From Coprinopsis marcescibilis (lineage: Eukaryota > Basidiomycota > Agaricomycetes > Agaricales > Psathyrellaceae), in the NCBI GenBank assembly GCA_004369085.1, contig ML210526.1:1-15086 (forward strand): a stretch of DNA of 15,086 nucleotides, read 5' to 3'. Positions 1 through 15,086 of the stretch are shown piece after piece (within the stretch, counting starts at the first letter, position 1; each line of letters begins with the position of its first letter). Both the position numbers and the translations under genes were made by a program. Below the pieces are notes generated by a model, which did no database searches, had not been told where the DNA came from, and saw only the letters and a program-made list of their open reading frames with translations.

Positions 1-227
1 ATCATTCTGCGTTCTGTCTTCTTCATTCCTCCCCTTGCCGTACTGTATCTTTCCTCTTGCTTTTTTAAAGTCGTTGGAGTGGTGGCTTTGGAGTTGGGCT
101 TCCGTGAGGCTCGTCCTTCAGCAGCTTTAGATTCCGCTTTCGCTCCATTTTTTCATCGAATACCACTAACTGACCTTTGCCTTTCTCCTCCCATCCTCAT
201 CGCGCCCTTTCAAATCAGCCAGTATAG

Positions 228-336
228 AACGTGCACGCAATCGGCGACTGCTCCGGCGGCCTCGTGCTAGACGCGTCTGAACTCGGGCTGTGCAACCTTG
301 GGCTCGCAGACGTTGACGCCTTTAACGACGTCGTGG
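228..336 (+). pseudogene. Amidohydrolase (YtcJ-like) exon remnant, copy A
   Basis: This single exon encodes NVHAIGDCSGGLVLDASE and about 18 further residues. It matches the VHAIGDRANG metal-site block of the YtcJ-like amidohydrolase family. The acceptor reads AGTATAG before AAC and the donor is GTGCGT at 337. Positions 1-227 are the end of the preceding long intron, which aligns with 7450-7686 in copy B. The conserved GDRANG core is altered to GDCSGG, so the loop after the metal-binding His has lost usual residues. Downstream exons for the C-terminal half cannot be found before gene 1 at 1608. The upstream part of the gene lies outside the window. I read it as the 3' remnant of a decayed gene, but cannot exclude that the upstream exons are intact. 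Confidence 0.62.
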
Positions 337-1607
337 GTGCGTTTCTCTTATGGATTTTCTTATAATCTTGGTTTTGATTTTACTTATGGTGTACTGGCGC
401 GATATCTGGTTCTGGTTCTCGTTTTAGTTTTTTGTTGTGACATGTGTTTTGGTGGTTTGGTGTGGTGGGAGAGCGGACTGGCCTCTGGCGCGATGTATAT
501 ACCCCACAAGGGCTCATGTTCGCATCGGGTCAATCGTTGTTCTTCGTTCTTCGTTCGTTGCCCTTGCGATTTCTTTGGCTATTTTACACCTCGTGGTCTG
601 GTATCGTACCCCATCCCCGGTTCCTGCTGGTCGGGCCGGGGAATGTGGTGGTGCGATCGTGCGATGAGGAGGGGGCATGTGCGTGCTATGGACTCTCTGC
701 GTCCTGGGAGCCTAACACGGGATCTGCTGTGCGCTATGGTGGGCAGGGGCGCGATGTGCGGCGGTGGAAACGGTGGGAAGGTATGTATGTTCGGCTGGAG
801 GGGCACCCATACTGATTATTCATATCTGACGACATCCGCGCCTCGGTACAAGAGGTCTGCGGGTCCCAACACCGGCGATTTGGGGTAGTTGTTGGCGGAT
901 ATGGTTGAGAGGGGCATAGGCCGTCCATCGCCGTGCTCGTTTGGGAACGGTCACCCAGTGACGTGGATGGTCAACGCGAGAGTGAACTCAGGCGGGCTAC
1001 TCTCGACCATGAGCAGGGATGCAGCTGTGGTGAGTGCATCTTGCCTACCCGTATTCGCTGGGTGCCGAAGATGGCTAACCCAAACTCGCAGATGCTCATT
1101 GTGAGCCCTGAGAGAAACAGCCCAGCAACCACGACGATCGCTTCACTCACGACTTTGAAGAGGGCTGAAAATCAAACTCCCAGTTCTTCGGGATACTTCA
1201 CTCTCTGGGAGGTCGAGGCAGGTGCCAGAAAAGCAGGCGACAAACATGCTCTTGCCCCTGCATGGCCGCAACTGTATGTCAGCGAATCCTGTGTTAATTA
1301 TTGCACTATATTGTCCAGTTTTCCGGCCCTCACAATTTATTTATCTTCTTCACAAGTTCAAAATGCGGGTTTTAAACGTGTTGATGCGCTCAAGATGGGC
1401 CAATCTCCACTGTATCTAATGCTGTTGGCAAAATTGCACCAAACGTTTCGGTTGCAGGCACGTATCGAAAACACATTGAGTACTATTTTTATCCTGATGC
1501 CGCACGCTGTGCACGAGGCACATTCCTGTTTTAGTCACTGACGAAGCTGTTGGACGTCTGCGAAACACACACTCTCTTCGAACCACGACCTTTGTATTCA
1601 GCCATCC
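337..1607 (+). other. Degenerate spacer between amidohydrolase remnant and microexon gene 1
   Basis: No convincing complete gene is seen here. Positions 337-671 align with 7796-8120, about 680-806 with 11010-11134, 815-850 with about 12181-12215, and 890-1607 with 12415-13137, so this is copy A of the duplicated cassette without copy B's extra DNA. A conserved intron-like segment lies at 1030-1091 (GTGAGT ... GCTAAC ... CGCAG) and its counterpart is 12569-12631. The exon before it reads ERSPSDVDGQRESELRRATL in copy A but has a stop in copy B, so it is probably a gene remnant. The last 500 nt are shared by both cassettes and presumably contain the promoter and 5' leader of the microexon gene. 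Confidence 0.5.
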
Positions 1608-4600
1608 ATGCAGACACCGCCGCAGACTCCAAAGCCCATTCTCAAGCGACTCTTCTCTCGATTCAATACGACTTTCCGCAGGAAGAAAGAACGTCCTGCA
1701 ATCAGTACTTTGATTTCGGAATCGACACATGTAAACACCCAACTTGCTGGTCCTCGAGCGATTGAGAGCGGAAGTGGATCGAAGGGCGTCTCCTTTGGAC
1801 GAAGAGTGCTGCAAACAGCGACCGTCGTTGCTGACATAGGTGCATCAGTCGCTGAGGCGGTACCTGGAGGGACGATTGCCAAAGGGGCGTTGGAAGCGTT
1901 TTGCAAGGTGCTCAAAGTCGTTGAGGTAAGAGGCATTGCTGCGAAACTTCCAAAACCTTCCGACGTCCTGACGACATTCGTGTAGCTCAATCTCCAGAAC
2001 AAGGAAGATGTGGATGACCTGCGCAGCAAAATCGAAGAATTGGTGGATCACCTATCCGAGTCCACGATTCCAGTGGGAGATGTTGCGTTTGAAGCTCGAC
2101 AACGTCGGCTTGTTAGGTGTGTTTCGATATTCCCCAAATGATCACTTATATACCTTTCTGTACGCTGCGCAGGAAACTACGCGCAAAGGCAGAAGAACTT
2201 GAAGAGTTGTTGGATGACCCTTGCGCGAAAATCAGATCCCAAGCGATCGCTCAAGCGATTACCGCCTGCTTCCGCGATGTCGAAGCCTTCAAGATGGATT
2301 TCCTGGTAGGTTTTCGTCGAGTCCCGCTAGCACTCGTTTGAGAAATGAACCAGCTCATGGTCGCTCAACACCAAATGCGAAGAAATGATTTTCTGGTGGC
2401 GGAAATGGCTAAGCAGACCGCGGCGTTGGAGGTCTTTGTTGAGCTGCACCAGTCGGGACCATCTACGCGGTTCCTGGCAACTGTTAAGGTCATGGATCCT
2501 CTGGGGCGCCCGCACATGGTTCCAAGGGAGTTTGTGAACGCCTTCAAGGTATGTGACATCCTTGACGAGGCTTGTCGTAGGTCTTAATGCCTGTACTCAC
2601 TCATCAATAGAATCTCGGCCAATATATCCTCGATGAATGGTCCGATAATCCCTCTCTTCAGGGGATACTAGCTCCCTATATTGCGGAGGGTAGGTATGAC
2701 CTGACTGTCAACAGTGGTGAGACTATCACAGAGATCGCAACTGGCGATGTACCATATGTTGCTGAACCAAACGAGACCATTGTGATGAGTGTTGTAAAGA
2801 TTAGCAGCAGAGTGCTTGGGAAGGAGTGCATTCAATGCGGTAAATCTGTCTTGCTAGGCCGGCATATTTGGTAAGACCCGCTCAACATGATGGATCCTCC
2901 ATCTAGTACTTTGTTGCTTGGCTCATAGCAGACAATAGCCTCAGTGGGCATCAAGCTCAGGACCTTGGGATGAATGAACTATCCATTGCATCATTGGACA
3001 TACCAAACGAGGACCACACAGTGGAAGCAATACTAGCCAACATGGTAGTAAAATATTGGGTATGAATTCCTTTGGTTTGTTATGTCCAGTTATAACTTGG
3101 TGCTGATCAATGATGGAAACTGTTTCATGTGGCTGATTCACAACATTTGATCCCCCTCATAGTCGGTGCGTATGACCTTTATGCTATCTTCCTGCCTTGC
3201 TGATCCCTATGTTTGTTTTACCTTATAGGAGGTATGTATTTGACCTTGATGCTATACATATTCCTTCCTTACTGATCCTCCATTTGTGTTCCACCTCATA
3301 GGGGGTGTGTATTTCAGCTTGATGCCATATATATTCCTTGCTGATTCTCTATTTGTGTTCCATGTCATAGCCAGTGTGTATTTGATCTTGAGGCTATCTT
3401 CCTGCCTTGCTGATTCCCCATTTGTGTTCTACCTCATAGATGGTGTGTATTTGACCTTGATGCTACATTCCTTCCTTGCTAATTCCCCATGGTTGTTCCT
3501 ACTTATAGGTGGTGCGTATTTGAGCTTAATGCTATAGTCCTGCCTTGCTGATTTCCCATGGTTGTTCCACCTGGTAGGATGTGTGTGTTTGAACTTGATG
3601 CCATGTTCCTTCCTTGCTAATTCCCCATGCTTGTTCTACCTCATAGTTTGTGTGTATTTGATCTTAATGCCATATTCCTTTCTTGCTGATTTTCTATGCT
3701 TGTTCCATCTCATAGCTGGTGCATATTTGATCTTGATGCTATCTTCCTGCCTTGCTGATTTCCCATGCTTGTTCCAACTCTTAGCGGGTGTGTATTTGAC
3801 CTTGATGCTATATTTCCTGCCTATCTAATGCCCCATATTTGTTCCACCTCATAGGTGGTGTGTATTTGACCTTGATGCCATATTCCTTTCTTGCTGATTT
3901 CCCATGCTTCTTCCACCTCATAGGCAGTGTGTATTTTAACCTTGATATTATCTTGCCTTGCTGATTCCATATGGTTGTTCCACCTCATAGAATGTGCGTA
4001 TTTGACCTTGATGCCATATTTATTTCTTGCTGATTCCCCATGCTTCTTCCACCTCATAGCAGGTGCATATTTGGTCTTGATGTTATATTTCCTGCTTAGC
4101 TGATTCCCTATGTTTGTTCCATCTTGTAGATTGTGCGTATTTGACCTTGATGTCTTCCTTCCTTGCTGATTCCCCATTTGTGTTCCAAACATCCACCTTG
4201 ATAGCCAGTATGTATCTGATCTTGATGCTATATTCTCTACCTTGCTAATTCCCCATATTTGTTCCACCTTATAGAAGGTTATATTTGACCTCAATGCTGT
4301 ATTCTTCTTTGCTGATTTCCCATTTGTATTTCACCTCATAGGAGGTGCACATTTGACCTTGATGCTATACCCCTTCCCTGCTGATTTTACATGGTTGTTC
4401 TTCCTCATAGACAGTGCGTATTTGACCTTAATGCTATATTCCTTCCTTGCTAATCCCCTATCTACCTTATAGTTTGTGGGTATTTGATCTTGATAGCATA
4501 GTTCTTCCTTGCTGATTTCCCATATTTTTTCTACCTCATAGAAGGTGTGTATTTGACCTTGAAGCCACATTTCTTTCTTGCTGATTCCCCATGGTTGTTC

Positions 4601-4883
4601 CACTTTATAGGAGGTGTGTATTTGACCTTGATGCTATATTTCTTTCTTGCTGATTCGCCTTGTTTTTTCCACCATATAGCTGGTGTGTATTTGACTTTGA
4701 TGCTATATTCCTTCCTTTGCTGAATTTGGCACATTTATTGCTCATGATTATTTTAATTGGCAATTCTAGAGCATGTTTGTGGGCTATGTGAATGAGTTGG
4801 ACCCCACAGCCTCAATTACTGGTTGGGACCTGTCTTGGGATGATAGTTCTGACTTGTTTGACCTGCTTAGACTCCAACAATAA
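1608..4883 (+). CDS. Microexon-array gene 1: helical/ubiquitin-like protein with 23 predicted single-codon exons
   Basis: Predicted CDS: exons 1608-1925, 1986-2116, 2173-2305, 2354-2548, 2611-2870, 2939-3059, then 23 single-codon exons (3163-4682) and terminal exon 4770-4883; 446 residues. The ATG is kept in the paralogue at 13138. Residues 1-30 are basic. Residues about 63-194 are helical, with VPGGTIAKGALEAFCKVLK and a charged heptad-like stretch, resembling HeLo/MLKL-type adaptor domains of fungal NLR-like proteins (family inference). Residues about 237-322 resemble a fungal ubiquitin-like domain (VKVMDPLGRPHMVPREF; later GRYDLTVNSGETI). C332, C335, H344, C346 and H350 form a possible zinc knuckle across the exon 5/6 junction. 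Residues 387-409 come from the array and 410-446 are an acidic tail. Intron 1 is 60 nt with an in-frame TAG at its acceptor, so retention gives a 125-residue form. Exon lengths match the paralogue or differ by 9 or 12 nt, which supports real coding. A simpler rival model stops at TGA 3063-3065, just after exon 6. Confidence 0.8.
2939..3059 (+). other. Exon 6 of microexon-array gene 1
   Basis: The exon begins with the C that completes a Cys codon split with exon 5 (TG at 2869-2870). It encodes LSGHQAQDLGMNELSIASLD and continues to VEAILANMVVKYW. The acceptor is ACAATAG (ends 2938). The nearer acceptor CTCATAG would give an in-frame stop, so the later one is chosen. The paralogous exon 14478-14589 has the same phase and ending (VVVKYW) and is 9 nt shorter. 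It ends at TGG in phase 0, before donor GTATGA. This sets the reading phase of the array downstream. Confidence 0.8.
3060..4769 (+). repeat. Tandem array of 22 unit introns separated by 3-nt exons (array 1)
   Basis: Tandem units of about 69 bp are made of an intron (GTGTGTATTTGACCTTGATG ... CTGAT ... TGTTCCACCTCATAG) plus 3 nt. Predicted microexons (codon, first base): TCG 3163, GAG 3229, GGG 3302, CCA 3371, ATG 3440, GTG 3509, GAT 3578, TTT 3647, CTG 3716, CGG 3785, GTG 3855, GCA 3924, AAT 3991, CAG 4060, ATT 4130, CCA 4205, AAG 4275, GAG 4342, ACA 4411, TTT 4473, AAG 4542, GAG 4611, CTG 4680. The 22 inter-microexon introns are 59-72 nt, 13 of them exactly 66. All begin GT and end TAG; 17 contain CTGAT and 5 CTAAT at the expected distance from the acceptor. 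Leading intron 3060-3162 and trailing intron 4683-4769 are longer and partly unique. Donors are mostly GTGTGT or GTGCGT; weak-looking ones are GTTATA (4278), GTGCAC (4345) and GTGGGT (4476). The repeat itself is certain; splicing as described is predicted. Confidence 0.85.
4770..4883 (+). other. Terminal coding exon of microexon-array gene 1 (acidic tail)
   Basis: After acceptor GGCAATTCTAG the frame set by the array opens for 37 codons and ends in TAA at 4881-4883. The peptide starts SMFVGYVNELDPTASITGW and ends WDDSSDLFDLLRLQQ. It has seven acidic residues, one Arg, and Trp, Phe and Leu between them, as in short acidic amphipathic docking or activation peptides. An open frame of the right phase ending with a clean stop, directly after the last array intron, is independent support for the model. 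Its counterpart in gene 2 lies beyond the window, so conservation could not be tested. Confidence 0.72.
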
Positions 4884-5497
4884 CTAACATATGTCCAAAT
4901 CCACCAGTATGTCAATTTAATTTTGCTCTATCACTGATGTTTGTGGGATGGTTGACATGCAACATAGTATGGCTTGGATTGGGGTGGAAAGAGACAGTGC
5001 AGTTTCAAGCACATTGGAGTTGAGCAAGTCAAAAGCAAGTGCCAAGTTTATAGCAAACTCAGAAATGTTGGATTGGATTCAGGATTGGAAACGGATTGCC
5101 TGCTGCAGATATTCGGAGAAAAATATTTGTTACACAAAATATGCTACGTCATTTTGATGTCATTCATGCTTTTTATGCGCACTTGTTCGTCGTTCGACAT
5201 TTGCAAGCGCTATCTAATCTGGAGCGCAGCCTGACCAGTGACCGGTGACATGATACCACTTTTGGTATTTGCCAATGACCATCCAAAGACCATGGTTGTA
5301 CCAGAGTCATTTCACTAACTGGTGATAGTTGGTCATGTTCGAACCGGACATCGAGTGGGTTTCGGTGATCAGATTCGGGCGTTCCATTCGCTCTCACTTT
5401 CACTGTCACTTTCTTCCTGCTCGTTCACCGTGATCCACTCTCTGCAGGTTCGACGATAGACTCTGGACCGACCGACGCCACGAAACTAGAACGACCC
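4884..5497 (+). other. Intergenic region between microexon gene 1 and amidohydrolase copy B
   Basis: This should contain the 3' UTR of gene 1 and the promoter of the amidohydrolase copy. No gene, RNA or clear polyadenylation signal is recognised. The open frames here (4948-5157 and 4974-5234) have no recognisable motif and no second copy to compare. The stretch before 5498 is pyrimidine-rich, with CTCACTTTCACTGTCACTTT around 5391-5410, which is common in fungal core promoters. Confidence 0.5.
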
Positions 5498-7795
5498 ATG
5501 GCTGAAAAGACTCCAGCCAAATCTCACGAGGACGATGAACGTGGTATCACTGGAAATCCTGCGGCAGGCTCACAGCTAGTAGCGAAGAAACGGACGAAAG
5601 CTCTCGTCCTCGCCGTCATGCTCTCGCTGCTTACCCTCTACACCAACACCAGCACTGACCGCTACGAAGGCCTTGCGTTCGAGTACAACATCACCAACCC
5701 TCTACCCCAAGGCAGCTACGTGCTGTGCTCGGCGGAAGGAGGGACGAGTGGCGCATTACGTGCAGTCCAACCCGGATATCCTCGCTGATGAAGGTGGGAT
5801 TGTGGAAGGGTGGGGATGGGACCATGTGGCTTTTGAGGGCGGCAAGATGCCTACTGCTGTGCGTATCTCATTATGCAATGTCTATTCCCCCCTACTACTC
5901 TTATTCGTGCTGGCATTAGCTAACTATCGCATTGTTCCCCCCACAGTCAGATCTCTCCTCGTACCCAGTCTTCGCGAACCGCCAAATCATACTGTCGAGC
6001 AAGGACGGACACGCAACTTGGGTCTCGCAGGCTACGTTGGATGCGAATGGGCCTTACCCGGCTGACGTCGACGGGGGTGTTATCGTTCGGGATGCGCAGG
6101 GAAATCTTACAGGTGTGTTATTGGTTCTATTTTCTGCGTTACGTCCTTGTGTCTGCGATATGTTCTACGTTCTACCATCTACGCGCCCTATCCCCTCAAT
6201 TCTCGGCCTCGCTCTTATCTCCCAGTCACTCACTAATAATACATTCACTGACACACATTTAAAACTCTGCAGGCGTTCATCGACACGGCGATGACGCTGA
6301 TCAGGTCACCCGTTATCACCCCCCAGATGCAGCACAGGCGGTTCACGAACACCATACGCGACGCGCTCAGCTTCGGGTTGACGAGTTTGCACGATGCGGG
6401 GTTTATATTTCGTTGGATTTCTTCACTAGGTGCGTTCCGGCTTTGCTTTCGTGGTTGAGGCTGGCTTGCGTTGGATTTGCGATGAGCTTTTGGGTCGAGG
6501 GTTGGTCGAGGATAGTACCTCTCAGCTTCGTTCGCTACGTCTTGCGGAGGTCTAGGGTTCACGGTACCTCGCCTGGCATTCCGATATCCCTCTCCTTTGC
6601 ACTTCACTCTGCGATTTCCGTTTCCTGATTTCCCCATTTCCGTTTCCTGATTTCCGCTTTCCGTTTTCTGCCATCCACATCTCCAATATCCCTCTCCCCT
6701 CTTAGACAATCCAAACGCCACGCCGGCCTCCCACTACGGATCTATGGCATGTCCTTCTTCAACGTCTCCGCCATCGACGTCCACTCCTTCTCCTCCCCTC
6801 CCTCCCCCTCCTCGTCGTCCAACGAAGCCTACTGGGGCTCCACACGCCGGAAGGTCGACGATATGGACGGCGAGACGCGTCTGAGCTTGCGCAGCGTCAA
6901 GATTTTCGCGGATGGGGCGTTGAGGACTATGGGTGCTGCTGTGAGTAGTTGTGGTATTCACCTGTCTAACTGACAAACTGACGAACCCGTTCCCTCCCCT
7001 TTATGGACAGTTGTACGAACCGTACGCGGATGACCCGAGTACGTCGGGGAGCATGCGTCTTTCGGTGGAGGTCCTTAATGCGATCGTGCCACACTTTTTG
7101 GAGGACGGTTGGCAAGTGGTGAGTTTCTGTTTCCGTTTATTCGATACACTGGGTGCGCTTTCTTGGTTGGTTTCTTTGGGTTCAGTAGCAGTCAGTTGCC
7201 GGAGCGTTGATGTGGCGTTCCTTCGTTCGTCTGACGTCATTGCCTCGGGTGTTTGATCGGGATCTCGTTTGCTTTTGCTTTGCTTCCGCACCATCTCTCA
7301 CTGCTCTGACCCCTGCTCCTACCGCTTCTATATACTCCTGTTCTCGCGCTCCCTCGTTGTCGCCTCTGGCATAATCCAGACTCGAGACCGCCTTCCTCTT
7401 CCCGATGCCGGTCTATCATCCCACCCGCAACTCTAATGTGTCTCGCGACATCATTCTGCTTTCCGTCCTCTTCATCCCTCCCCTTGCTGTACTGTATCTT
7501 TCCTCTTGCTTTTTGGTAGTCGTTGGAGTTGGGTCTTCGGAGTTGGGCTTCTGTGAGGCTCGTCCTTCAGCAGCTTTAGATTCCGCTTTCTCTCCATTTT
7601 TCATCGAATACCACTGACTGACCTTTGCCTTTCTCCTCCGCTCCTCATCTAATACTCAACACGCCCTTCCCAATCCTCCAGCGAAGAAGGTGCACGCAAT
7701 AGGTGAACGCGCCAACGGCCTCGTGCTAGACGCATCCGAACTTGCGCTGCACAACCTCGGGCTCGCCAACTTCAACGACTTCAACGACGTCGTAG
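5498..7795 (+). pseudogene. YtcJ-like amidohydrolase, copy B, broken
   Basis: Exons follow the fungal membrane-anchored YtcJ-like amidohydrolases (metal-dependent hydrolases of the amidohydrolase superfamily). The start at 5498 gives a charged N-terminus and one membrane segment (ALVLAVMLSLLTLY), then YVLCSAEGG. Exons are 5498-5858, 5947-6114, 6273-6429, 6706-6940, 7011-7118 and 7687-7795. Family blocks in order: SNPDILADEG, EGWGWDH, ILSSKDGHATWVS, RDALSFGLTSLHDAG, LPLRIYGMSFF, SVKIFADGALRTMGAA, YEPYADDPSTSG, DGWQV, VHAIGERANG. Defects: near 5745 the protein jumps from CSAEGG to RVAHYVQSNPD with a frame change, losing the segment that should carry the first metal-binding HxH motif. One base is missing in the G run at 6398-6401, and the reading frame returns as VYISLDFFTR. 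The C-terminal half, after the VHAIG exon, is not found. The intron at 7119-7686 is unusually long (568 nt). Catalysis is very unlikely. A sequencing error could explain the one-base shift but not the missing segment. Confidence 0.82.
6614..6655 (+). repeat. Short direct repeat inside amidohydrolase intron
   Basis: Two exact 20-bp copies (6614-6633 and 6636-6655, period 22) of a pyrimidine-rich sequence, TTTCCGTTTCCTGATTT in core. They lie in the 276-nt intron between exons ending 6429 and starting 6706. This is probably replication slippage that lengthened the intron; no function is evident. Confidence 0.7.
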
Positions 7796-8120
7796 GTGCG
7801 TTTTTCTTATGTTTTTCTTGGCTTTGGTTTTACCTTCGGTTTCACTGGTGGGATATGTGGTTCTGGGTCTGGTCTTGGTATGTGTGAGATGTGTTTTGGT
7901 GGTTTGGTGTGGTGGGGAGAGCGCTCTGGCCTCTGGTGCGATGTATGCACCCCAAGGGCTCAGGTTCGCATCGGGTCAATCGTCGTTCTTCGTTCTTCGT
8001 TCGTTGCCCTTGCGATTCCTTTGTCTATTTGACACCCCGTCGTGGTCTGGTATCGTACCTCATCCCCGGTACTTGCTGGTAGGGCCGAGGAATGTGGTGG
8101 TGCGATGGTGCGATGAGGAG
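7450..8120 (+). repeat. Copy B of segment 1-671
   Basis: The sequence aligns nearly colinearly with 1-671: intron end, VHAIG exon, then an intron-like stretch containing GTTTTGGTGGTTTGGTGTGG and the GTATCGTACC(C/T)CATCCCCGG block. Similarity stops abruptly after GATGAGGAG (671 in A, 8120 in B). It marks one border of the extra DNA in copy B. The two copies show many substitutions and small indels, so the duplication is not recent. Confidence 0.85.
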
Positions 8121-8759
8121 AAGGTGATAGGATTTGAGGGGGTCATATGTTCACTAGAGGGTGGACTTGCGCAACATTGGTGCCTTTGGGGGTGCTTGTG
8201 GGTGGGTCGGGCGTGCTGGGTTCGCATCCGTTCTTCTTCCTAATCTTTTTCCTGCTATTGCTGTTGTGGGATGATGGAGGTCGTCATTACGGCGACAAGG
8301 ATCTTGGTAGCCGAGACTCGAAGTTACGGAGGCCGGGGCTTTCCAAGTCGCAAGGGTAAAGACCAGCTCTCTTCTCCTATGATTTGGGTTTTCCACCGAT
8401 TGAGTCGCGACGATGATGGTGACACAAAATCCGACAGGCTCGGTGATACGCTGAAAGCTCCCTTTTGGGCGCCTCGGGGACAGCGCCAATCTCGTTTGCT
8501 ACCACAGATGAATTTTCAGTGAAAATGGACTCCATACCCACATAACGCTTGTGTCGAGAGTACAACTGGCCAATGGTGTGCGACCCAGGTCGTGCAGTGT
8601 AGATGTCCGGTGGAGAATGAAAGGTGAAGGTTTTGGCGCCAATTGCTGTTTTCATTTTGAAATCACAAAGTTTCTGATTGAATACATTGTCGACGACGAA
8701 ATTAAAGTACATTTGCTTCATTTACACACTTGTGCGAGACCGGAAAACGAAAAGATACA

Positions 8760-9163
8760 TTAGCTAAGAGTACATCCTGATCCAGGTTTTGGGTGGGGTT
8801 CATTATCCTGACGTTCGCTGCTAAATAAAAGAACTGTCTTCGATCTCCTCTCAAACTCAGGAGGTGGGGGCACTGGAGAGTCCACTGAGAACATGTACGT
8901 GATGAATGCGACGATACTGGATGCCAGTACCGACAGGATCACCTGTTGTGAACAGACATACAAGCAAAAGGGCACAATGAGACTTGTAAATGAGTCACCT
9001 GCCTGCAAATTCCCGGAGATGTCGAGTGCTTGGTAGTTCGCAACTCATCCAGGGACCCAAGCATTGATTAGATTGACAGCGTGTGCGACGTCGAAAGCAA
9101 TGAGGCAGAGCCCTTCGTTACGAAAGCGATCATGAAGTTCCGACTGGGCTAACTTGACTCAGT
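8760..9163 (-). pseudogene. Membrane-protein C-terminal remnant with one in-frame stop
   Basis: On the minus strand a frame runs from about 9163 to TAA at 8760-8762, interrupted by one TGA (after NAWVPG). It reads SELHDRFRNEGLCLIAFDVAHAVNLINAWVPG in pieces, then ALDISGNLQAGDSFTSLIVP. A hydrophobic segment follows (QQVILSVLASSIVAFITYMF), then a Pro-rich, charged tail. The frame is the same on both sides of the stop and the composition is protein-like on both sides. This suggests a former coding exon with a nonsense change, perhaps TGG to TGA. Further upstream on this strand (9469 to 9200) open pieces are broken by stops. The family is not recognised. Confidence 0.4.
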
Positions 9164-9918
9164 ATAAGCAGAAGGCTGGAAGCGCCACCCGCCAAACGGC
9201 AGAGAAGATGTTAACTACCGATGCACTGTGGGAAGCCGACACCTCCTCGAGTGGACTAGACTCAGAGAATGTGCATGTCAGCGCCAACGCGATCGACTTT
9301 CATGGAACGTCACGGACGAGGTTGATTGGGACAGGGACGCCGCACAATGAATGCCTTCGAACAAAGTGCGCTAATCAAAGGAATACGATTGTAATAAGGA
9401 TGGCTAAGCGTGTAGACCTGCGGTCGACGACGAGCTGCGGGATTCTCATCTTGACGGCTTCCTTTTAAGTTTTACCTTCCAAGCTCCCAAGGCCTCATCG
9501 ATTCGGTCTTCTGATTATTGACCTTCAAAATTATGCGCGCTTGAGCAAGGGCCTACTCTGCGACTAGATCGTAGATTAGATCAGATTGTCGTGGCTGTGC
9601 AATGTGGTTCCCTCGCACTCTTGACACACGTTGCTGCGGTCCTCCTCTCCTTGTGTCCTCCTTCTCTCCTTGCATCCAATCAACGACAACGCCAACACTC
9701 AGCGGCAAACTCCTGAGCTCAACGATACGAATATCCAACGATGCTTCAAGCGGTGTCCTGCGGTGCTACATGATCCCCAACGATAGACTGTGTAACTTCA
9801 GTGCGTTTGGAGCAGGGCCTGCGTGGGCGGGACTGCGCGGATGAGATGGTGGTCGCCCTGCACTTTGCTCGTCTCCCCTCTCTCTGCATCTCGTCCATTT
9901 TCCTCTTGTCGGAATGGC

Positions 9919-9942
9919 GGGGGTCACTAAGGGGGTCACTAA
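9919..9942 (+). repeat. 12-bp tandem duplication
   Basis: The 12-mer GGGGGTCACTAA occurs twice in immediate succession, at 9919-9930 and 9931-9942. It lies in the copy-B-specific segment outside any recognised gene. It could be a simple slippage product. Confidence 0.7.
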
Positions 9943-10964
9943 GGGTGGAGAAGATTGACTTCACAGTTCGTTCATCTTTTCTAGATCCTTGGTGCTTGTT
10001 TTATGGGACGGTCGTGTGGATGGCGTGTTGGCGGTGTGCCATGTGCAGACTGCTATGCTGTCCAATTTTCTATTGGATCTCGCTTGGCCTGAGCCTCCCT
10101 ATCTATTCATTGTGGCTGATGCGTTCAGCATTCAAGTATTGGTTCGTGGCCGCTTTTGCTCTTGCACTCAGGCAGCTTGTGTATGATGACGCTGGTTTGC
10201 AGGTGGATGCTTCGACACAATCTTCAGTTGCTTTTTCTTCTCTTGGATTCACCTCGCCCATTCGAACCTCAATCATTCCTTCGTCCATTCTTGTCTGTTC
10301 ACTGTGATCGAACACGCAACGACCACTGGTGGTCAGAGGCGAGCTTGCAAAAAGGCTTGTTACTTGACTTGCGTGGCGTCGTACGACTGGGACACGCTTT
10401 CCCTGTCGCTCTTACAGACCTTTTCCCTGGTCTTTCCTCATCCTCGTTACCGATATTCTCATTCGGACATCCCTTCCCCGTCCTCCGCCCCCCGCCAACT
10501 TGTGTCCGGTGGGGCTGGGATTTTACTCTCTGATTATCTGTGTTCTTGGATGCGCTTGGGAGTTGGCGGTACCGACGGGATGTGTGGTCAAAACTCAGGT
10601 CGTGACGTTAGTTGGATGAGGGTTGTTCTGTGGAGGTGACAGGTGGCAGGCACCACGCAGAGTTCGATATTCTACACATCATGGATGTCCGTCGTCGTGT
10701 TCTGGTGGTTGGTTGTGCGTCGGACGTGGGGGAACGGTATTTTCGTTCGCCTGTGTTGATCAGCTGGGTTGGCTGGTTCACTTCGATTTTGGGGTGGCGA
10801 CCTTGTCTTCTTCCTTCGCTCTTTGCCTCTGCCCATTCTTGAGTCTCTAACCTCGCTCCTCGCGTCTTCTTTTCATAGAGTCCGGCTTCTCATCATCGTT
10901 GTTGAATCATTCACCCAGCCTCCCTTGCAAGTGCCCCGGATATTGGAGCTGCTCCTTTGTTGTG

Positions 10965-11411
10965 CCTTGAAGGGCCCGGCCGATTAAAGAGATATGGCAG
11001 CGGTGTGGTGGCATTGTGCATGGCATGGACTCTCTGCGTCCTGGGAGCTTGAAGTGGGATCTGCTGTAAGCGATAGTGGGCGGCGGTGCGATGTGTGGTG
11101 GTGGAAATAGTGGGATGGTATGTATTTTCGCTGGAGGGTCTTTTCTTCGATCATGATCGTCTGCGTTGGTTTATTGCGCTTGTGCACATGGCGGTTGGAA
11201 GGGTGATTGCGTTTATCTGGGCTACCATCCACGTCGTTCAATTCTTCTTTCATTTGCTGCAAACCTGCTTTGTGCTTATTAACATTGTGACGACCCCAGT
11301 ACACTGTAGCGACCTGCACGCCCAACCCAAACGCGCTGATTGTCCTCATGTGTTGAAGGGGCCGGCTGGTTGACGAGATCTGGGAGAGTGGTGCTGGGCA
11401 TTGTGTGTGGT
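10965..11411 (+). repeat. Diverged direct repeat at the junction of the copy-B extra DNA
   Basis: Two similar stretches, about 10965-11025 and 11347-11411, share TTGAAGGG(C/G)CCGGC, a GAGAT block and GGCATTGTG(C/T)(A/G)TGG. The nearby motif GCACGCCCAACCCAAACGCG (about 11318) recurs at about 12122. The DNA between 10965 and 12150 therefore includes internal duplications, which may explain part of the size difference between the cassettes. Confidence 0.5.
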
Positions 11412-12081
11412 ATGTTTCTCTATGTTATCGATGCCTGTTTATGGAATGGTGGGCGTGGAGGGGTCTTTGCTTCGTCGATGTTGGATCTTGCCGTCTTCCC
11501 TGCCTCCCCCTCGTCGTGGTTCAATTCGTTTGGACATCCGTTGCCCTCTCGGCTGTTGGCATTGGCATTCTTCATATTCAAACCTCGAGGGCCAGTCACG
11601 AGTCGTAGCGTTGCGTGTCCAGGTCCCGGGGCTGGGTGGGGGTTTTTATCCTGGCGCGCTGTGCTCTCAGACGTTGGCTGGCAAGATGGATGGGTGGGTC
11701 GTCTTTTCTTCGTTCTCGTCATCCTTCTTTCAGAATTCATATTCCCCATTCTCCAGGTCCCATAGCCGTCCCCTATATCTGCGCCCTTGCCACCACTGTT
11801 CTGCGTTCTTCGGAGTAGCTGCGCATGCAGCGTGGAGTGTGGAGTGTCCCAGGGATAACACTGGCGCTGGGTGTGTTCGGTGGTGCGTGGAGGGATAGGA
11901 TGTTGACTGACCTGGGCTAGTTATTGGGGGTATGAACTAGGAGGTGGTTGGAGGTGGTTGGTGTCGGGGCTGGAGAGGACTGAGCTCGTTATGCACTCAT
12001 CTTGCCTCGAAGCCACGCCGCTCCATGCCTCTTTTCTTGGCTGAAATCTGGGCTTGGGTGTACTTACTTGTCTTGTCTTGA
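11135..12081. other. Copy-B-only stretch without a recognised gene
   Basis: Copy A lacks this stretch; its sequence passes from about 806 to about 815 where copy B passes from 11134 to about 12180. It holds only short open frames with no known motif, and fragments resembling neighbouring copy-B DNA, for example the Pro/Ser-rich and TTCGGACATCC-like pieces near 10465 and 11530. I see no RNA gene or complete transposon. Confidence 0.45.
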
Positions 12082-12366
12082 CCTGAGAACGTTGTCGTTG
12101 GGACGGACAGGGGACCCGCCGGCACGCCCAACCCAAACGCGCTGATCGTCTGCGACAACCATCCATACCGGTGCTTCACACCTGACGACATCCGCACCTC
12201 GGTACAGGACCACGCTCGGGCTCTTAGAGATCCTTCAGGACGGGGTTACTGTTGGCAAATGGTCTGGAGGTCTCAACCCTGGCTCTCTTCGCGTGGTGCC
12301 CATCGAACGACGCGGCTTTGTGACTTGTCTGCGCTCAACTCGAACTCTACGAACGCACCTGCGGGC
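12082..12366 (+). other. Possible unassigned exon or gene remnant
   Basis: An open frame runs between TGA at 12079-12081 and TGA at 12367-12369. It includes TDRGPAGTPNPNALIVCDNHP and FTPDDIRTSVQDHARALRD, which look more protein-like than surrounding frames. There is no ATG, so it would be an internal exon; an acceptor-like GGACGGACAG ends at 12110. Copy A retains only the part reading ACGACATCCGC(G/A)CCTCGGTACA (about 822-845). The family is not recognised. It could belong to the lost C-terminal half of the amidohydrolase, but I see no family motif to show that. Confidence 0.3.
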
Positions 12367-12414
12367 TGAGGCTGCGCGGGTGGTATTTTTGGATATGCAA
12401 GAAGGGTATCCCGG

Positions 12415-13137
12415 TGATTTAGGGTGTTCATTGGCGGGAGGGTGGAGAAGGGCATATTCTCGTCCAGCGTTGGGCTCGTTCGGAAACGTTCACCCAGTGA
12501 TGTGGTTAGTCAACGCGAAGCTGAGAGGAAGTAGGCTGCCCTCGAACATGCCCTGAATGCAGCATATGGTGCGTGCATCTTTTCTAACTGTATTCGCTGG
12601 GTGCTGAAGATTGGCAAATTCGAACATTTAGATGCTCACAGTGAGTACCAGGGGAAGACACCCCGGCAACTACGACCACCAAGGGTTTGCCAACGACTTT
12701 GAAGAGGGCTGGAAAACAAACGATCGGTTTTCCGAGGGCACTTCACTCTCAGGGAGATCAGAGGCTATAAACATGGGTGCAATGCTGTCCGAACTTACTT
12801 TCAGCGAACCCTGTGTTAATGGTTGCTACATACTGTGCAAATTTCCGGTCCCCACAATTTATCTTTTTCAGAAGTTCAAAATGCGGGTGTTAAACATGTT
12901 GATGAGCTGAAAATGGGCCTGTCACTGCAGTGCCTAATGCTGTAGGCAAAGTTAAACCAAACCTTTAGGTCTCGGGCACGTATCAAAAACATATCGAGTA
13001 TCTACTCTATTTTTATCCCCGTGAATGCCGGACGGTGTGCACGAGGCTCATTCCTGTTTGAGTCATTGACGGAGCTGTGGGATGTCTGCGAAAGCGACTC
13101 ACTGAACACTAACCACGACCTTTGAAACCCGCCATTC
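12415..13137 (+). other. Conserved upstream region of microexon-array gene 2
   Basis: This region aligns with 890-1607 upstream of gene 1. Shared blocks include the intron-like 12569-12631, ACTTTGAAGAGGGCTG, TTCAAAATGCGGGT and the GACTCC-rich start region. Frames in this region are interrupted in at least one copy, so it is probably non-coding leader or promoter plus a remnant of an older gene. The AT-rich ACAATTTAT block (about 12855) is conserved in both copies and is a candidate core-promoter element. Confidence 0.5.
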
Positions 13138-15086
13138 ATGCAGACACTGCCGCAGACTCCAAAGCCTCTTCTCAAGCGACTCTTCTTTCGACTCAACACG
13201 ACTTTCCGCAGGAAGAATGAACGTCCTGCGATTGGGGTGTTGATTTCACGATCGACACAGATAAGCACCCAGCTTGCTGTTCCTCAGGCGATTGAGAACG
13301 AGAGTGGACCGAGTGGCGTCTCCTTTGGACGAAAAGTTCTGCAAACAGCGACCGTTGTTGTCGAAATAGGCGCATCAGTTGCCGAGGCCGTACCTGGAGG
13401 AACGATCGCGAAAGGGGCGTTGGATGCGTTTTGCAAGGTGCTCAAAGTCGTCGAGGTTAGAGGCATTGCTGTGAACCTTCCAAGGCTTGCAGGCGTCCTG
13501 ACGACCATCGTGTAGCACAATCTCCAGAACAAAGAAGACGCAGCTGAGCTCCGCAAGAAGATCAACGAGTTGGTTCACGACTTATCAGAGTCCGAAATTC
13601 CAGAGGGGGATGCTGCTTTTGAAGCTCGCCAAAGTCAGCTTGTTGGGTGCGTTTTGTCAACTTTCCTGTACGGTCTATTGTGTACTTCTTTCTCGTTGGT
13701 CAGAAAACTATACGCAAAGGCAAAGGGGCTTGAAAAGCTGTTGGAAGACACTTCATCGAGCATCAGATCCCAAGTAATCTCTCAAACAATTGCCAGCTGT
13801 TTTCGCGATGTCGAAAGCTTCAAGACTGATTTCTTGGTATGTCTTTGTCGTTGTCGAGCCCGCACCGATCATGTTTGATTGAAATGAATTAGGTCTTGGT
13901 CGCTCAACACCAAATGAGACGAAACCAGGTTTTGATGATGGAAATGAGAAATCTCAGGGCAGAGCAGACTGCGGCGTGGAAGTTTTTCATCGAGATGCAA
14001 CAATCCGGACCCTCTGCACGATTCCTGGCGAACGTTAAGGTGGTGGATCCTTTGGGGCGCCCGCACATGGTTCCAAGGGAGTTCTTGAACGCCTTCAAAG
14101 TAGTTGTTCGACGAGGCTTTCCATGGGTCTTAATTCCGTGCTCACTCATCAACAGGACCTTGGCCAATACATCCTCGATGAATGGTCTAGTAATCCCAAT
14201 GTCCAGGGGATAATAGCTCCCTATATCGTGGAGGGTAGGTACGACCTGACTGTCAACAGTGGTAAGACCATCAAAGAGATTGCAACTGGCGATAAACCGT
14301 ATGTTCCTGAGCCGAACGAGACCATTGTGATGAGTGTTGTGGAGTTTAGGGACAAAATCTACGGGGAGAAATGCATTGGATGCGGTAAATCTGTCTCATC
14401 CCGACACAAATCAGGCCGGTACAATTGGTAAGATCCCCCATCGAGTATTTTGTTGCTGGGCTCATAACAGACAATAGCTGTGGTGGGTTTCAGGTTCAGG
14501 ACCTTGGATACGACGAATTGTCCACCGCATCGATGGACATGGCGGGCCAGGTGGAAAAAATACTTGCCAACGTTGTAGTAAAATATTGGGTATGATTTCC
14601 TTTGGTTTGTTATGCGGAGTGATGCTGATCAGTGATGGGCCCTGTTTCCTTTGGCTGATTGCTCATGCTCGATCTGGCTTATAGAATGTGCGTATTACAC
14701 CTCGGTGCCATATGTCTTCCGTGCTTATTCGCCATGCTCGGTCTGGCTTATAGAATGTGCATATTACACCTCGTGCGATATTCCTTCCGTGCTGATCCGT
14801 CACACTCGTTCCACATCACAGCGGGTGCGTATTTGACCTCCATGCCATGTTCCTTCCATGCTGATTCGCCACACTTGTTCAATCTTATAGAACGTGTGTA
14901 CTTGACCTCGATGCCATATTCCTTCTGTGTTGATTTGCCATGCTCGTTCCATCTCATAGGAGGTGCGTATTTGACCTTGATGCCATATTCCTTCCATGCT
15001 GATTTGCCAGCTCATTCCATCTCATAGGAGGTGCGTATTTGACCTTGATGCCATATTCCTTCTGTGCTGATTTGCCATGCTCGTTC
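13138..15086 (+). CDS. Microexon-array gene 2 (paralogue of gene 1), 3' end beyond window
   Basis: Ordinary exons: 13138-13455, 13516-13646, 13704-13836, 13893-14099, 14156-14427 and 14478-14589 (391 codons). Six predicted single-codon exons follow before the window ends inside an intron. Exons 1-3 have exactly the lengths of gene 1 (318, 131, 133); exons 4 and 5 are each 12 nt longer and exon 6 is 9 nt shorter, so every difference keeps frame. Intron 1 again is 60 nt with in-frame TAG at its acceptor. Exon 4 ends AAA before donor GTAGTT, where gene 1 has AAG before GTATGT. The domain order is the same: basic N-terminus, helical region with VPGGTIAKGALDAFCKVLK, ubiquitin-like region with VKVVDPLGRPHMVPREF, then CIGCGKSV and a Cys pair (CC) across the exon 5/6 junction as candidate metal ligands. 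The frame is intact throughout, so it is probably functional. The C-terminal exon should lie to the right of the window. Confidence 0.8.
14590..15086 (+). repeat. Tandem intron/microexon array 2 (start only)
   Basis: Same organisation as array 1. Leading intron is 14590-14684 (GTATGA ... CTTATAG). Predicted microexons (codon, first base): AAT 14685, AAT 14754, CGG 14822, AAC 14891, GAG 14960, GAG 15028. Inter-microexon introns are 66, 65, 66, 66 and 65 nt; a sixth begins at 15031 and runs off the window. Donors are GTGCGT, GTGCAT or GTGTGT; acceptors are ATAG, with one CACAG. Two introns lack a strict CTRAY branch site (CTTAT, TTGAT). The last two units are nearly identical, which suggests a recent duplication. 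The 3-nt exon is in phase 0 after the TGG that ends exon 6, as in gene 1. Confidence 0.82.

Follow-up and report, generated by a model that had tools for sequence, protein, structure and literature searches.

Can a gene write part of its protein one codon per exon? The question is raised by a stretch of DNA from the basidiomycete Coprinopsis marcescibilis (contig ML210526.1, positions 1 to 15,086; these 15,086 nucleotides (nt) are the window hereafter), in which the forward-strand gene at 1608-4883 contains an array, at 3060-4769, of intron-like segments alternating with segments of only 3 nt. We propose, at a probability of roughly 75%, that the single-codon exons are genuine and form an array towards the 3' end of a gene encoding a ULD_2-domain protein, in which the array codons would be joined into a variable C-terminal peptide. 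The evidence consists of the anatomy of the array, its recurrence in six genes, the retention of splice signals, the excess divergence of the codons and the chimeric introns of this gene. The array is probably spliced, as judged from these genomic features.

The array comprises 24 introns, all of which start with GT and end with TAG, and the 23 segments between them measure exactly 3 nt in 23 of 23 cases. The first intron is 103 nt long, the last 87 nt, and the unit introns between them 59-72 nt, lengths that are not all multiples of 3, and the array stretch as a whole is a tandem repeat with a 69-nt period. CTGAT or CTAAT occurs in 22 of 22 unit introns, usually 30 nt upstream of the acceptor; the last intron contains neither. 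In the splice model, six upstream exons, 23 phase-0 codons and the terminal exon join into one predicted frame of 446 residues plus stop, the array codons spelling SEGPMVDFLRVANQIPKETFKEL. A sequence-only reading of this DNA had placed the 24 introns and their 3-nt spacing correctly to the base, together with the CTGAT/CTAAT branch site of the unit introns, the landmarks TGG 3057-3059, TGA 3063-3065, AGC 4770 and TAA 4881-4883, and the reduction of 1710 genomic nt to 69 spliced nt. The in-frame translation likewise bears out its claim that the upstream and terminal exons are in phase.

The longest chain of YAG-NNN-GT sites at 45-130 nt spacing has 23 members in 3060-4883, a stretch of which 500 shuffled versions never gave more than 3. 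Elsewhere the count reaches 1 in window positions 1-3059 and again in 4884-14588, and the reverse strand of the window gives 2. Because the array is a 69-nt tandem repeat, its repetitions are not independent events, and the exact 3-nt spacing alone is weak evidence, since few indels would be expected over so short a stretch. In all five family arrays tested, counts of YAG-N(k)-GT are highest at k = 3 and not at k = 0, the zero-length exon of a recursive-splicing ratchet point. An unspliced coding repeat was rejected: the 69-nt period is divisible by 3, but frames are open over parts of the array only, and unit lengths are not all divisible by 3. A search of window positions 2900-4950 for structured RNA gave no Rfam match at gathering score.

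The same arrangement is found in five further genes of the same genome (36.3 Mb in 448 contigs), namely four paralogues and a distant ULD_2 gene, C89. One paralogue lies in the window itself, with six single-codon exons (14685 AAT, 14754 AAT, 14822 CGG, 14891 AAC, 14960 GAG and 15028 GAG); C272, C163, C105 and C89 have 12, 11 regular, 19 and 13, respectively. Across the six arrays there are 96 YAG-NNN-GT matches (27 in the main array, 6 in the second window array, 12 in C272, 16 in C163, 22 in C105 and 13 in C89). We excluded 12 of these, of which 10 overlap a counted site 4 nt upstream (four in the main array, four in C163, two in C105), one lies within a C105 intron and one falls at an irregular C163 site. 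This leaves 84 exon sites of exactly 3 nt, besides three irregular ones in C163, all counted from anatomy and not from transcripts. In C105 the intron sequence has drifted and intron lengths range over 50-115 nt, yet ATAG-NNN-GTNNGT is nearly unchanged at the 19 sites although the introns have widely diverged: the acceptor side reads A19 T18 A19 G19, the donor G19 T19, and donor positions 5/6 G17 T18. A lost site would appear in this array only as a longer intron, and one such loss may underlie the 115-nt intron.

C89 was reached only through a genome-wide Pfam search for ULD_2, which gave three loci (C89, C414 and C130). Its exons are flanked by CAG or TAG acceptors and mostly by GTACGT or GTATGT donors, and its representative unit intron resembles the main unit no more closely than shuffled sequences do, 318 of 1000 of them scoring at least as high, so that the same arrangement occurs with unrelated introns in one genome. 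A DNA search of the genome with the C89 array gave no other copy, and the 1.3 kb fetched downstream of the ULD_2 locus of C414 contains no array. The C130 contig ends just after the ULD_2 exon, where an array could start, and the window contig ends inside an array at 15086; assemblies may thus hide further arrays. Searching the genome with the main unit yielded at least 32 matches, all on C367, C251, C163 and C272, each of which carries family arrays; these counts are lower bounds, as diverged copies, including the whole C105 array, are missed.

An identical copy of the main array gene on C251 (30617-37726) was rejected as a second locus because it is a 7,110-base contig-end overlap with window 1-7110, and one gene was counted; such an unmerged overlap, if overlooked, leads to the gene being counted twice. 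C251 also carries, within 24800-28000 (piece positions 2242-2811), a duplicate of the C105 gene that has been truncated, so that part of an exon directly adjoins the final units of the array. As a recent pair for codon rates it offers n = 4 only: the four codons left in it all equal those of C105 (4/4) at 93% identity, one of them behind AAG. Additionally, the C163 array contains a recent duplication of a three-unit block, some codons of which already differ.

If the codons were passive passengers of the repeat, they should diverge as the introns do. In 46 units of the four similar arrays (3 exon columns, 66 intron columns), the pairwise difference in the exon columns is 0.74, 0.72 and 0.60 (mean 0.68) against an intron mean of 0.225, which by a hand Jukes-Cantor correction corresponds to about 1.8 and about 0.27 changes per site. 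Of the 66 intron columns, three are at least as variable as the least variable exon column, and no 3-column intron window exceeds 0.52. Among the 15 unit pairs whose introns are less than 10% apart, the exon difference is 0.62, compared with 0.41 for the best and 0.16 for the median of 64 intron windows selected by the same rule, and six of the 15 differ at all three codon bases. The exon difference is 0.71 in the most distant pairs and so depends little on intron difference. In the other two arrays, the exon columns stand at 0.79, 0.73 and 0.41 in C89, where the introns average 0.20, and at 0.73, 0.66 and 0.66 in C105, where they average 0.43. Since the C105 signals are kept and exon positions diverge at 0.68 versus 0.22 for introns, it appears that selection maintains the splice sites and either favours codon differences or preserves them. 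These alignments agree with two selective readings: each codon may be under diversifying selection, or a particular peptide may be under purifying selection while the introns are homogenised. Both presuppose translation of the codons. The explanation by free codons and constrained intron bases is weakened because the C105 introns have drifted.

The introns also record how the array arose. In the main array, the 3' half of the first intron and the 5' half of the last resemble the unit introns (z 6.3 and 7.5; 0 of 300 shuffles as good), whereas the outer halves show little or no such resemblance (5', 71 of 300; 3', 22 of 300). The unit introns are thus chimeras of the two flanking introns, which shows that this array grew by tandem duplication of a block made of the first-intron 3' half, a codon and the last-intron 5' half. 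The first-intron signal is clear in the second window gene (0/300) and in C272 (0/300), and moderate in C163 when properly cut (1/300). A linkage between codons and donor bases, considered as a trace of conversion, was rejected, as one of 30 tests at P 0.013 is chance level.

The spliced window protein matches Pfam ULD_2 (PF22893), a ubiquitin-like domain, at 27.7 bits against a cut-off of 24.5, and has a CxxCG motif after this domain. The C89 protein (68.6) and P0003 (26.1) pass the same cut-off, and the relatives P0001 (22.6) and P0002 (19.7) fall below it. No NACHT or ankyrin match was found by Pfam in the spliced window protein, P0001-P0003 or the C89 protein; a helical HeLo/MLKL-like N-terminus, which we do not claim, received no support in Pfam, NCBIfam, PADLOC or PDB sequence searches. 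In the ULD_2-region exons, the ratio of nonsynonymous to synonymous substitution (dN/dS) is 0.13-0.61 in 13 paralogue comparisons, exon 4 coming from only three of five genes, and on these ratios the host exons are under purifying selection. Protein searches returned relatives from C. marcescibilis alone, one for the C89 protein and four for the window gene; all these searches required shared 5-residue words, and those with the window gene scored only about 8000 candidates. P0001 and P0003 have no exact copy in the genome searched, which must therefore be incomplete or differ.

Several observations weigh against single-codon exons, or against the tests that favour them. The deposited gene models contain no array codons: P0001 fuses KYW straight onto the terminal exon, P0002 skips to the next gene and P0005 runs into array introns. 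The C163 array, on the reverse strand, has three sites that are irregular by eye (one without its AG, one with an exon of 2 nt, one whose acceptor has shifted) and is decaying, and under the simplest splice model the terminal exon of C272 does not fall in phase; from these two cases, some family members may be decaying. The chimera signal weakens in C163 (1/300) and C105 (8/300), and both halves of the C272 last intron weakly match the unit (0 and 2 of 300). Six unit pairs less than 8% apart show a slight exon excess, 0.44 versus 0.42; at the 10% cut-off one intron column is as variable as the first exon column; and the third codon position of C89 is ordinary, 12 of 66 intron columns being as high as its 0.41. 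Moreover, units are related by descent, so that pair tests are not independent, and C105 sites were recognised by their splice signals, so that retention is partly built in. Three of the 22 C105 motif matches were excluded, one intronic and two overlapping; the latter two would read TAA, and no other match is a stop. Finally, the absence of stops from all 84 counted codons (chance P 0.02-0.05) favours translated codons only marginally, is too weak to serve as the chief proof, and was rejected in that role.

A first alternative is that the array consists of tolerated scars: an intron minisatellite expanded, its units kept their own splice sites for stepwise removal because fungi splice short introns best, and the 3-nt pieces are included in the message with no role beyond not being stops. 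The 69-nt tandem repeat and the decay of C163 suit this alternative, and an origin by duplication requires no function. The codon set is also narrow, with 27 types among the 84 counted codons, as constraints from the donor or from CpG might give. The third base is C in only one of the 84 exons; because this base precedes the donor G, the scarcity may come from CpG decay or from U1 pairing. Neutral codons, however, should match the divergence of intron bases and are instead near saturation, and two unrelated arrays, both in ULD_2 genes, are hard to obtain by neutral expansion alone. We regard scars as improbable.

Still less probable is the removal of 3060-4769 in a single step, with the repeats wholly intronic. 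This is what the annotation of the relative P0001 depicts, and the terminal exon of P0001 agrees by eye in length with that of the main array gene up to TA-I/L-T-W, a stretch that is, also by eye, common to this exon, C105 and P0001. A 1.7-kb intron would be unusual for a fungus, however, intermediate splice sites would not persist inside one although they are kept in C105, and the P0002 and P0005 models look like prediction errors around arrays. An introner-type insertion, in which copies of one mobile intron landed behind each codon of an existing coding sequence, predicts the near independence of codon and intron divergence but is barely credible, given that the main-array unit introns are chimeras of their flanks, that the unit search matched only contigs with family arrays (though it missed the diverged C105 array, and old copies elsewhere are possible), that codon order is not common to the arrays (none of 15 pairs below P 0.14), that P0001 has no matching contiguous stretch, and that insertion does not force 3-nt spacing.

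Taken together, single-codon exons remain the best reading, as the sequence-only reading had held, on the strength of six genes, signal retention and codon divergence; its further claim that the architecture is undescribed fails (see below). We infer that the array is spliced and that its peptide has a role, perhaps as a recognition surface. The short introns would be removed one after another by intron definition, and the 23 phase-0 codons would be joined between KYW and the terminal exon. The array may have started as a codon-sized exon between two introns and then expanded by repeated tandem duplication of the block, after which selection would act on each codon to make it differ or to keep it different. 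With all donors and acceptors in phase 0, the gain, loss, skipping or conversion of a unit would alter the peptide and leave the frame intact. The sequence-only reading described a device writing a peptide one residue at a time, which is apt wording for the predicted splicing. A more tentative and rather doubtful extension is that each array acts as a combinatorial generator, in which any donor could pair in frame with any later acceptor and one gene could yield many in-frame C-terminal peptides through codon skipping, its germline codons gained, lost and swapped under diversifying selection, and that such recognition repertoires arose independently in mushroom and truffle, and in at least two unrelated mushroom arrays. 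If spliced as we read them, these genes interrupt a variable peptide with an intron behind each of its codons, up to 23 in a row, near the limit of exon size; they would test how the spliceosome handles an acceptor and a donor 3 nt apart, and would offer a mutation-tolerant route to an evolving binding peptide. Further cases may be hidden, because the deposited P0001, P0002 and P0005 models do not show arrays.

Table 1. Features of the two array genes in the window
Feature	Position	Strand	Basis
Exon 1, begins ATG	1608-1925	+	Splice model; P0001 homology
Exon 2	1986-2116	+	Splice model; P0001 homology
Exon 3	2173-2305	+	Splice model; P0001 homology
Exon 4, ULD_2 domain start	2354-2548	+	Splice model; Pfam; dN/dS 0.13-0.43 (3 paralogue comparisons)
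Exon 5, remainder of ULD_2 and CxxCG	2611-2870	+	Splice model; Pfam; dN/dS 0.15-0.61 (10 paralogue comparisons)
Exon 6, ends ...VVKYW, phase 0, last codon TGG 3057-3059	2939-3059	+	Splice model; conserved with P0001
First array intron, 103 nt; 3' half like unit introns	3060-3162	+	Splice sites; half-intron comparison
Single-codon exon 1, TCG	3163-3165	+	
Single-codon exon 2, GAG	3229-3231	+	
Single-codon exon 3, GGG	3302-3304	+	
Single-codon exon 4, CCA	3371-3373	+	
Single-codon exon 5, ATG	3440-3442	+	
Single-codon exon 6, GTG	3509-3511	+	
Single-codon exon 7, GAT	3578-3580	+	
Single-codon exon 8, TTT	3647-3649	+	
Single-codon exon 9, CTG	3716-3718	+	
Single-codon exon 10, CGG	3785-3787	+	
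Single-codon exon 11, GTG	3855-3857	+	
Single-codon exon 12, GCA	3924-3926	+	
Single-codon exon 13, AAT	3991-3993	+	
Single-codon exon 14, CAG	4060-4062	+	
Single-codon exon 15, ATT	4130-4132	+	
Single-codon exon 16, CCA	4205-4207	+	
Single-codon exon 17, AAG	4275-4277	+	
Single-codon exon 18, GAG	4342-4344	+	
Single-codon exon 19, ACA	4411-4413	+	
Single-codon exon 20, TTT	4473-4475	+	
Single-codon exon 21, AAG	4542-4544	+	
Single-codon exon 22, GAG	4611-4613	+	
Single-codon exon 23, CTG	4680-4682	+	
Last array intron, 87 nt; 5' half like unit introns	4683-4769	+	Splice sites; half-intron comparison
Terminal exon, 37 codons and TAA 4881-4883	4770-4883	+	Splice model
Paralogous gene with ordinary introns between its exons, as far as TGG 14587-14589	13138-14589	+	Homology
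Second window array, runs off contig end	14590-15086	+	YAG-NNN-GT sites

An amidohydrolase-like gene follows the main array gene at about 5500-6950 of the window, relatives of it lie beside the C163, C272 and C105 array genes, and the deposited P0002 merges array gene and amidohydrolase-like gene across the array. A short tandem repeat of 22 nt at 6612-6670 is unrelated to the arrays.

Among known systems, very small exons that are spliced and that annotation misses are reported to include a 1-nt exon of Arabidopsis APC11 (PMC4674806), a 3-bp exon of Drosophila homothorax (PMC7392893) and neighbouring 5-nt and 12-nt exons in rice (PMC8831610); splicing can thus cope with exons as small as 1-3 nt, but these are cases of one or two exons, whereas the present ones form arrays. 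The introner-like elements described from fungi, which are near-identical introns found in genes unrelated to one another (PMC4457414), and intron gain through tandem duplication (PMC4974935) resemble the present arrays in the multiplication of introns and in duplication as a source. Unlike introner-like elements so described, the units here occur in one gene family only, as judged from the genome unit search, which misses diverged copies.

Aphid bicycle genes and schistosome micro-exon genes are likewise fast-evolving families of many small exons, those of bicycle genes in one phase. The exons of both are longer than one codon. In bicycle genes the internal exons are almost all in phase 2 (PMC9168663), in contrast to the one-codon, phase-0 exons between repeated introns found here.

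The closest precedent lies in the truffle Tuber melanosporum, whose NACHT-ankyrin (nank) NLR genes have alternatively spliced, codon-sized (3-bp) microexons, as stated in the reviews PMC4986451 and PMC10197012, both citing Iotti et al. 2012. This precedent overturns the view of the sequence-only reading that no such architecture had been described: single-codon exons are not new in kind. The literature matches listed, which comprise titles and abstract openings and little of the subscription literature, include no case from a basidiomycete or from a ULD_2 gene. As these sources describe them, the truffle genes differ in belonging to an ascomycete and having NACHT-ankyrin hosts, whereas here the fungus is a basidiomycete and the hosts are ULD_2 proteins; alternative splicing is reported for the truffle, whereas the C. 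marcescibilis arrays are known from genomic anatomy. The comparison concerns the 3-bp size of the exons and implies no likeness in the tandem arrangement of similar introns. Both systems, on the account of the same reviews for the truffle, have multiple 3-nt exons, an expanded family of fungal paralogues and peptide diversification codon by codon, and the array peptide might act in recognition through its surface, the role that the reviews suggest for the truffle receptors. The precedent makes splicing of the present array more credible. Because single-codon exons occur in truffle and mushroom, and within one genome between introns unrelated to each other, evolution may be able to take this route repeatedly.

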